From contig NC_010424.1 in the NCBI RefSeq assembly GCF_000018425.1, positions 1,814,501 through 1,878,500 of the forward strand: 64,000 bases of DNA, written 5' to 3'. Source of the DNA: Candidatus Desulforudis audaxviator MP104C (GTDB taxonomy: Bacteria; Bacillota; Desulfotomaculia; Desulfotomaculales; Desulforudaceae). The position numbers and the translations under genes were made by a program. Below the pieces are notes generated by a model. That model worked only from the letters and a program-made list of their open reading frames with translations. It was not told where the DNA came from and searched no databases. How positions within the stretch are numbered: position 1 is the stretch's first letter; the number at the start of each line of letters is the position of its first letter. Shown here one piece after another: positions 1 through 48,106 of the stretch.

Positions 1-222
1 GGGCTGACCAGGGTCCGTCTCGGCAATGTACCCCTGCTCTCTTAAAGCCGGGCCGTTCCCAGATAGACAAGAATCTCGCGGATGAAAGGTATCCGGATAA
101 ATCTTTAGCCACAGTTCGCTCCAACCAGCGATTCGCTGCCAGCCTGATGTGCCGGGCCGGTGGCGAAGCCCTTCAGTCTTTATCCTCAACCTAAGCGCAC
201 CCACATACCACGATTAACGGGT
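1..222. other. Window edge, no gene recognised
   Basis: No reading frame in this stretch looks like a known protein and no RNA gene or clear hairpin is visible. It lies downstream of the minus-strand response regulator that ends at 223 and may hold the end of a neighbour cut by the window edge. Confidence 0.4.
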
Positions 223-45734: not shown

Positions 45735-45955
45735 TTGCGTACAGTTTAACAACTTCTTTCGAATTCCTTCCTTACAGACGCAGAAAAATCTGCAAAACAA
45801 GCAATTTTTTTTCATTATTCCGAACCTTATTCCGCGCTCAGGGGGGGGGGCACCGCCGGCCGCCAGTTCGTATTAACTTATATTGATCGGTTGGTATTAA
45901 TTGACGGGTTTGACTGGTGGGAACGCGGGTCGTAACGAGCCAACGCTTTTTGTGG
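45735..45955. other. Divergent intergenic region upstream of flgB leader and the MNT-HEPN gene
   Basis: AT-richer than its surroundings, with a run of ten G's at 45841-45850 and TATTAACTTATATTG nearby. I see no confident flgB promoter hexamers; one should lie here on the minus strand. Confidence 0.4.
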
Positions 45956-45995: not shown

Positions 45996-46874
45996 ATGAG
46001 CACGGTTGCAGAACAAATCCGAAACCAGATCAATCTGCCCGGGACGTTTTTCCGGCGTCACGGCATACAATTGGCCTTTGTGTTCGGCTCCGCCGTAGAT
46101 GGCGGAACACAGCCGCCAAAAGACCTGGACGTGGCCGTGTTGTTTGCGCATTATAGCTTTCCGCGCTACCTCGGCGCCCGGGATGAGCTGCAGCTCCGCT
46201 TAAATCGCCGGAATGTGGACTTGGTCGTTTTGAACCGCAGCAGCCCGGCGCTGAAAATGGAGGCCCTGATCAAGGGGGTTTTAGTATACAGTAAGGATAC
46301 ACGGGCATTTGCTGATTTTGCCGTCAACACCTGCTTTGAGTTCGAGGACTACCTCTTTTTTAAGCGGGAATACCAGATGTTCTGGAGGAAGCGACTGCGG
46401 GAGGGGCTGCTGGTGGCTGAAAAACGCCTGAATCAGGAACGGATTGAAACGTACTTGTCACAAGTGGAGCAGGCGGTGCAGCGCTTGCAGGAACTAAACG
46501 AACGCTTTTCGTCTTTTGTGGAATTTGAGCGCGACCCGGACACACGGGATTTGTGTATCCACCACCTGCGCATCGCTCTGGAATCGGTGCTTGATGTCTG
46601 CCGGCACTTTCTCGCCGTCAAAGGCGTCGCTCTGAATGAGTACGACACCACCCGTCTGATCGCACTGGCCGGCGAAAAAGGACTACTTGACCGTCAATTC
46701 GCCCAGCAGATCAAGGGTATGGCCGGTATGCGCAACGCAATCGTGCACGTATACTGGCGCTTGGACTACCATGCGATCTATGAAGCAGTCACCAGGAACT
46801 TAAACGATTTCGGTGAATTCGCCCGCCAGGTGACTCTGTACCTGGATCGCTCCCAACCGGCAGCGGGTAGATGA
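45996..46874 (+). CDS. Fused MNT nucleotidyltransferase and HEPN (MntA-HepT-like) protein
   Basis: 292 residues. Residues 1-110 form a minimal nucleotidyltransferase with GS-x10-DxD spelled GSAVDGGTQPPKDLDVAV, followed by LNRRNVDLVVLNRSSPALKMEAL. Residues 150-285 form a HEPN (DUF86/HepT) domain with RX4HXY spelled RNAIVHVY. In the known toxin-antitoxin system these are two proteins: HepT is an RNase and MntA silences it by AMPylating the Tyr of RX4HXY. Here both lie in one chain joined by about 40 residues (TRAFADFAVNTCFEFEDYLF). It lies between the flagellar operon and the pse cluster, in the direction of pseC. Confidence 0.85.
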   Translation: MSTVAEQIRNQINLPGTFFRRHGIQLAFVFGSAVDGGTQPPKDLDVAVLFAHYSFPRYLGARDELQLRLNRRNVDLVVLNRSSPALKMEALIKGVLVYSKDTRAFADFAVNTCFEFEDYLFFKREYQMFWRKRLREGLLVAEKRLNQERIETYLSQVEQAVQRLQELNERFSSFVEFERDPDTRDLCIHHLRIALESVLDVCRHFLAVKGVALNEYDTTRLIALAGEKGLLDRQFAQQIKGMAGMRNAIVHVYWRLDYHAIYEAVTRNLNDFGEFARQVTLYLDRSQPAAGR

Positions 46875-46942: not shown

Positions 46943-48106
46943 ATGCGCTTTATTCCGTACGGCCGGCAAGCCATCGATGAAGAGGACATCCGGTCCGTTG
47001 TAGAAGTCTTGCGCTCGGACCGGCTGACCCAGGGTCCGAAAGTGGCCGAATTTGAAGAAGCATTGGCCGCCTACTGCGGAGCCCGTTATGCCGTCGTCTT
47101 TTCCAGCGGCACGGCCGCCCTGCACGGGGCCTACTTCGCGGCCAGGGTGCAACCCGGGAGCGAGGTGATCACCTCGCCCATTACCTTCGCGGCCACCGCC
47201 AATGCCGCCCTTTACCTGGGCGCGAAGCCGGTTTTCGCCGATATTGAACCGGACACGGCCAACATCGATGTCACGCGGATCGAGAATCTCATCAACAAAC
47301 GCACTCGTGCCATTGCCCCGGTACATTTCGCGGGGCAGCCCTGCGACATGGACGAAATCCACCAAATCGCCCGGCGCCACGGCCTCTACGTGATCGAAGA
47401 CGCCTGCCACGCCTTGGGCGCGACCTACAAAGGGCAGCGTATAGGCAGCCTTTCCGATATGACCGTCTTCAGCTTCCACCCAGTGAAGCACATCGCCACC
47501 GGCGAAGGCGGTGCCGTCCTGACCGATAACCCGGATTTCGTCCACAAACTCCGGATGTTCCGGGAACATGGGATCACCCGCGACGCTGCCTTACCTGGGA
47601 GCACCAACCCCGAAACAGAACCGGACCCCTGGTATTACGAAATGCAGCACCTCGGGTACAACTACCGCCTCACTGACATCCAGTGCGCCCTGGGCATATC
47701 GCAGTTGAAAAAACTGGACGGGTTTTTGGAAAGGAGAAGGGAAATCGCCCGCACCTACGACCGGGCGTTCGCCGAAGTACCGGCCATCCGCCCGCCGGCC
47801 CAAAAGCCGGACCGGGAATCCGCCTACCACATCTACGTGGTGCAGATAGACTGGAAGGCAATCGGCAGAACGCGCCGCGAGGTGTGCGCCCTGCTGCGGC
47901 AAAACGGCATCGGCACCCAGGTGCACTACCTGCCCGTTTACCGCCACCCCTACTACCGGAGCCTCGGCTATCCGGCCGGCCTCTGCCCGCGCGCCGAGGC
48001 CTACTACGAGGCCGCCCTCACCCTGCCGCTGTTCCCGGCCATGACGGACGAAGAAGTCCAATGGGTCATCAAGGCGGTGGGCCGGCTCGCCACCGGCACC
48101 CGTTGA
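46943..48106 (+). CDS. pseC: PLP-dependent aminotransferase PseC
   Basis: About 387 residues from an ATG with GGAGG in front; a longer frame overlapping the previous gene lacks a ribosome site. The DegT/DnrJ/EryC1 fold shows VVFSSGTAALHGAYFA, VIEDACHALGATYKG and the PLP Lys in FSFHPVKHIATGEGGAV. PseC transaminates the 4-keto product of PseB to UDP-4-amino-4,6-dideoxy-N-acetyl-altrosamine. It is encoded on the opposite strand to the rest of the pse genes. Confidence 0.88.
   Translation: MRFIPYGRQAIDEEDIRSVVEVLRSDRLTQGPKVAEFEEALAAYCGARYAVVFSSGTAALHGAYFAARVQPGSEVITSPITFAATANAALYLGAKPVFADIEPDTANIDVTRIENLINKRTRAIAPVHFAGQPCDMDEIHQIARRHGLYVIEDACHALGATYKGQRIGSLSDMTVFSFHPVKHIATGEGGAVLTDNPDFVHKLRMFREHGITRDAALPGSTNPETEPDPWYYEMQHLGYNYRLTDIQCALGISQLKKLDGFLERRREIARTYDRAFAEVPAIRPPAQKPDRESAYHIYVVQIDWKAIGRTRREVCALLRQNGIGTQVHYLPVYRHPYYRSLGYPAGLCPRAEAYYEAALTLPLFPAMTDEEVQWVIKAVGRLATGTR

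Follow-up and report, generated by a model that had tools for sequence, protein, structure and literature searches.

A single gene of Candidatus Desulforudis audaxviator MP104C, whose genome consists of 2,349,476 bases in one contig, joins an MntA-like nucleotidyltransferase (MNT) and a HepT-like HEPN toxin domain in one protein, which raises the question of whether such a gene makes one protein or two. The stretch of DNA that we analysed, here called the window, covers 64,000 nucleotides (NC_010424.1, positions 1,814,501 to 1,878,500 of the forward strand), and positions given below refer to the window unless another locus is named. A preliminary description of the locus had reported MntA and HepT fused into a chain of 292 residues with intact GS-x10-DxD and RX4HXY motifs, which was borne out exactly, with Pfam and NCBIfam in agreement. 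The gene, its domains and its catalytic motifs are as follows.

45996..46874, + strand: full MNT-HEPN fusion gene, 292 amino acids and a stop in an open frame; the orthologues are also fused and uninterrupted.
46050..46301, + strand: MNT (MntA-like nucleotidyltransferase) domain, residues 19-102, Pfam Polbeta, E-value 1.6e-13.
46086..46130, + strand: GSX10DXD catalytic motif, G31 and S32, ten residues, then D43-L-D45; exact in the sequence.
46467..46832, + strand: HEPN (HepT-like) domain, residues 158-279, Pfam PF01934, E-value 6.4e-25.
46731..46754, + strand: RX4HXY motif, R246-NAIV-H251-V-Y253, the predicted RNase site and the predicted AMPylated Tyr.

The protein matched both the MntA_antitoxin model NF047752 (67.8 bits) and the HepT_toxin model NF047751 (80.3 bits) above the cut-off of 60 for each, and the third metal-binding Asp, D75, was also kept. 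It thus contained an MNT-family antitoxin with GSX10DXD and a HEPN/DUF86-family toxin with RX4HXY, as in type VII systems, but a single uninterrupted frame was found in the window and in the orthologues where those systems have two neighbouring separate genes. The AlphaFold model showed two confident domains (mean pLDDT 86.2, pTM 0.51) whose relative placement is uncertain, with the MNT half extending via a long helix to residue 138. The HEPN half could be superposed on solved HEPN toxins with TM-scores by target of up to 0.91. A solved full-length homologue was not found in the PDB, where the good matches covered single halves and those extending beyond one half were weak and of the aminoglycoside nucleotidyltransferase type. 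Neither a sigma-70 promoter nor a terminator consensus was found near the gene. A run of ten G residues at 45841-45850, approximately 145 bases upstream of the gene, is a possible slippage site.

The same fusion was identified in 8 of 100 relatives, at 56-67% identity, all of which belong to the same order and contain it without an internal stop, the TAG in the G085 copy being the terminal stop. Counted at the class level, 9 of 113 genomes contained the fusion, the window genome included, and two other matches in the class were separate pairs in which a stop codon divides the genes. A scan of GTDB contigs provided members from Dehalococcoidia and Methylomirabilota in addition to those from Desulfotomaculia, and one more full-length copy came from the small phylum of the MAG Yes70-08. 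The preliminary description had suggested a search of relatives for the same fusion, and its uninterrupted presence in these eight genomes and across several phyla rules out a sequencing error or frame artefact between the domains. In a tree of the HEPN domains the family formed a single clade with support values of 100/99, and the tree overall required more than one fusion event, the number of changes being approximate because the L097 row was labelled as separate although its frame is fused. Carriage by phages or plasmids was rejected: fusion orthologues were not found in IMG/VR or in phages, and the plasmid search gave just one divergent MNT-HEPN frame (Cytobacillus) and one Pseudanabaena match with separately annotated genes.

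Residues G31, S32, D43, D45, D75, R246 and H251 were invariant across the family, and fewer residues separated GS from DxD in the members from Dehalococcoidia and Methylomirabilota. The Tyr of RX4HXY was missing only in L009 (G054), where it is naturally replaced by Cys (RNAIVHVC) while the remaining catalytic residues are all kept. Purifying selection acts on both halves, since dN/dS in pairs of close orthologues was 0.05-0.17 when computed on the MNT half and 0.19-0.30 on the HEPN half. It was also noted that a Dehalococcoidia MAG (L050, 1664-2083) contained a HEPN remnant from which the MNT half has apparently been deleted, and in which RX4HXY reads as intact.

The gene had been described as a single gene between motility and glycan loci with no second partner. 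At the locus itself this holds, and a partner gene conserved next to the fusion was not found across the family, but elsewhere the genome contains MntA/HepT pairs encoded by separate genes, together with another MNT-HEPN fusion that is frameshifted. The motility and glycan setting is not conserved: the flgB-degT region was present without the fusion gene in a congener (G002) and in a family relative (G004), so the gene is patchy in its distribution. The neighbours of the orthologues varied between glycan genes, a cas gene cluster, short VapBC-like pairs and efflux genes, the VapBC-type and efflux labels being judged by eye. In Dehalococcoidia (L045 and L047, 7947-16828), the fusion was located directly upstream of a cluster of Cas_TM1802, Cas7, Cas5, Cas3 and Cas1 genes. 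A conserved glycan or flagellar partner was rejected, since the neighbours differ and the site is empty in two relatives. The degT-like aminotransferase frame downstream was listed from 46871, and its homologues suggest a start at the ATG at 46943-46945, preceded by a GGGAGG site.

Absent from the preliminary description was a conserved start signal at the seam between the two domains, where four further features were recognized.

46400..46404, + strand: internal Shine-Dalgarno sequence GGAGG where the two domains meet; shared by the initial set of 15 fused orthologues and by L098, and assessed by shuffle tests.
46404..46421, + strand: linker between the folded domains, residues 137-142, modelled by AlphaFold with pLDDT values under 50.
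46413..46415, + strand: in-frame start codon inside the gene, here GTG (V140), conserved as GTG, ATG or TTG throughout the family.
46413..46874, + strand: predicted nested free HepT frame, 153 amino acids and a stop, starting at the HEPN boundary; HepT_toxin 82.7 bits.

Apart from the C-terminal tail, the linker was the only part of the model with pLDDT values below 50, and codon 140 falls inside it, so that initiation at V140 would give the whole HEPN domain. Each of 12 representative fusions, the other members of which are 44-67% identical to the window protein, contained GGAGG followed after 7-8 nucleotides by an in-frame NTG at the position of V140. The seam reads R-E-G-x-x-V in Desulfotomaculia, with the Glu always encoded by GAG and the Val always by GTG, except for a TTG-coded Leu in G064; the corresponding residues of the Dehalococcoidia and Methylomirabilota members are G-G-x-x-M, and GGA is the codon of the first Gly in every case. 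The residue at the start position thus varies between Val, Met and Leu and the residue at the Shine-Dalgarno sequence changes from Glu to Gly, while the RNA signal stays constant.

To estimate how often such a pattern would arise by chance, synonymous codons were permuted within each gene, with protein and codon usage held constant. The signal was observed in 11 of 11 representatives in the first test, against a mean of 1.2 and a maximum of 5 in 2000 shuffles, and all remaining alignment columns had a Shine-Dalgarno sequence and start in fewer than 2 sequences. L098, which was discovered after the pattern had been noticed, matched it, and with this sequence added the count was 12 of 12 (mean 1.25 and maximum 6 in 5000 shuffles). 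The test assumes independent lineages and its p-values are therefore too small, though the signal was still seen in 8 of 8 of the most deeply branching lineages (mean 1.06, maximum 5), which are close to saturation at synonymous sites and mostly use the same codon for a shared residue about as often as expected by chance. Codon 140 had the highest synonymous-conservation score of the gene (z = 7.4), the 8-codon window 136-143 ranked first by the same measure, and in 14 of 15 sequences no other internal NTG had anti-Shine-Dalgarno pairing as strong as that of the seam NTG. Around the internal start the RNA was not unusually open in comparison with synonymous shuffles. We take these patterns as evidence for selection at the nucleotide level on the internal Shine-Dalgarno sequence and start codon, and the conserved start suggests that the toxin may also be made alone.

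The possible origin of the site is indicated by a two-gene relative (L062), in which the last part of mntA contains the Shine-Dalgarno sequence of hepT and a single stop codon separates the two genes, which share one frame, so that loss of this stop could create the fused layout. The internal site probably served as the ribosome-binding site of hepT when the ancestor still had two genes, and was retained when the stop codon of mntA disappeared. Among other MNT-HEPN fusions, an SD-like stretch and a start at the seam were found together with an intact RX4HXY in L092, L097 (where the stretch is GGGGGG and not GGAGG), L102, L103 and the second fusion of the window genome. A clear internal site was not found in L093 and L099, in which RX4HXY is intact, and the sites in L100-L101 were weak. 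L099-L103, from the phylum of G499, represent a further fused family that has kept RX4HXY, and 2 of these 5 contain AAAGGAG and an ATG at the seam. The second fusion of the window genome (G000:C1:398435-399189; L004 1357-1992, L006 1300-1773) reads AAGGAGGGGCGGGCA-ATG at the seam and has kept RX4HXY, with a frameshift interrupting its HEPN half.

A separate MNT-HEPN fusion family was identified in 14 Chloroflexota genomes (L078-L091), in which RX4HXY is decayed and the GS often lost, and an internal start was not found at the seam of these 14 fusions. They are likely to be a domesticated counterpart. These other fusions point in the same direction as the window family, which is supportive but not decisive, given the few independent events. 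With several other fused groups found, fusion of the two domains is less unusual than the preliminary description had implied.

On the balance of these observations we consider that the gene is probably a one-frame type VII HepT/MntA-like module that makes both the fusion and free HepT. Translation from 45996 would yield the MNT-HEPN chain, and an internal ribosome-binding site at the seam would restart translation at V140 to yield the free HEPN protein of 153 amino acids. HEPN subunits from the two products could pair into the RNase dimer, in which the fusion chain would most likely be the antitoxin-bearing form and free HepT an extra toxin subunit. The MNT domain, on its short flexible linker, would AMPylate Y253 of its own chain and of free HepT and so turn the RNase off, whereas toxin without a working MNT domain, be it lost, inhibited or under-produced, would be active. 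Here we infer AMPylation, RNase activity and dimer formation from the family (PMC7641770, PMC11586414).

The preliminary description had proposed instead a self-regulated RNase switch in which the 292-residue chain is the sole product and the MNT domain AMPylates the Tyr of the HEPN domain in the same polypeptide. The fusion does keep both active sites intact in one chain and the linker is short, but a strictly intramolecular modification, and with it the loss of control by antitoxin loss, is doubtful given the conserved seam signal. A free HEPN toxin made from that signal would have no antitoxin domain of its own and would still need modification in trans. A single product also leaves unexplained why the Shine-Dalgarno sequence and start persist where the amino acid sequence of the seam varies. 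Moreover, the solved complexes contain an excess of HepT over MntA, 6:2 in Shewanella (PMC7641770) and 4:1 in Legionella (PMC11586414), which a strict 1:1 chain would not match and a fusion supplemented with free HepT could. We regard the single-product switch as unlikely. That GGAGG acts without initiation, as a pause site favouring folding of the MNT domain before the HEPN domain is synthesized, would fit its position between two folded domains. Pausing needs no start codon 7-8 nucleotides downstream, yet the NTG is kept through Val, Met and Leu and no codon of the gene is more conserved at the synonymous level, which makes this explanation very improbable.

Rather unlikely, too, is a domesticated nucleotidyltransferase, in which the HEPN domain would serve in substrate binding or regulation and the MNT domain would modify another substrate, in the manner of aminoglycoside nucleotidyltransferases or GlnD/GlnE. 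The Chloroflexota fusions appear to be of that type, and according to Anantharaman et al. 2013 (PMC3710099), who propose domestication, HEPN domains in fusions have typically lost the RNase residues. In the window family, R246 and H251 do not vary, HEPN is the more conserved half, and there is no constant neighbour pointing to a pathway.

We lean towards the view that a whole type VII-like system is contained in this one frame, with the antitoxin made only as a fusion, the free toxin made from a conserved nested start and the ratio of initiation setting the antitoxin dose, and that this layout may have survived more than one independent fusion. If so, one gene could accommodate a two-protein toxin-antitoxin system and still yield the toxin as a protein of its own, and proteins listed as fused toxin-antitoxins in databases could conceal a second product. 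The relative amounts of fusion and free toxin would then also provide a handle on how the excess of HepT over MntA is set.

MNT-HEPN fusions were already noted in 2013 (PMC3710099), and the HEPN-M (DUF86)-MNT fusions described there have the same domain order and families as the window protein. The window family is an exception to the remark on lost RNase residues in that text, whose passages on such fusions do not mention an internal start. The fusion itself is thus already known, and in the open-access literature we found no description of an internal toxin start, predicted here, in MNT-HEPN or other toxin-antitoxin fusions.

The type VII HepT/MntA system of Shewanella oneidensis (SO_3166/SO_3165; PDB 5yep, 6m6u, 7aer) shares both NCBIfam matches, both motifs and the HEPN fold with the window protein, but consists of two separate genes, whereas the window contains one frame with a predicted nested toxin start. 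Toxin and antitoxin domains are also joined in one protein in the fused defence protein CapRel (PMC9712102). Its toxin and antitoxin families differ from those of the window gene. To our knowledge, an internally started free toxin is not part of the CapRel system. Production of Cas11 from cas8 (e.g. PMC11899642) involves unrelated proteins, and the internal start has been experimentally shown for Cas11 whereas it is predicted for the window gene, but the window gene would resemble cas8 in having an in-frame internal start that adds a subunit consisting of the C-terminal domain and sets the subunit ratio.
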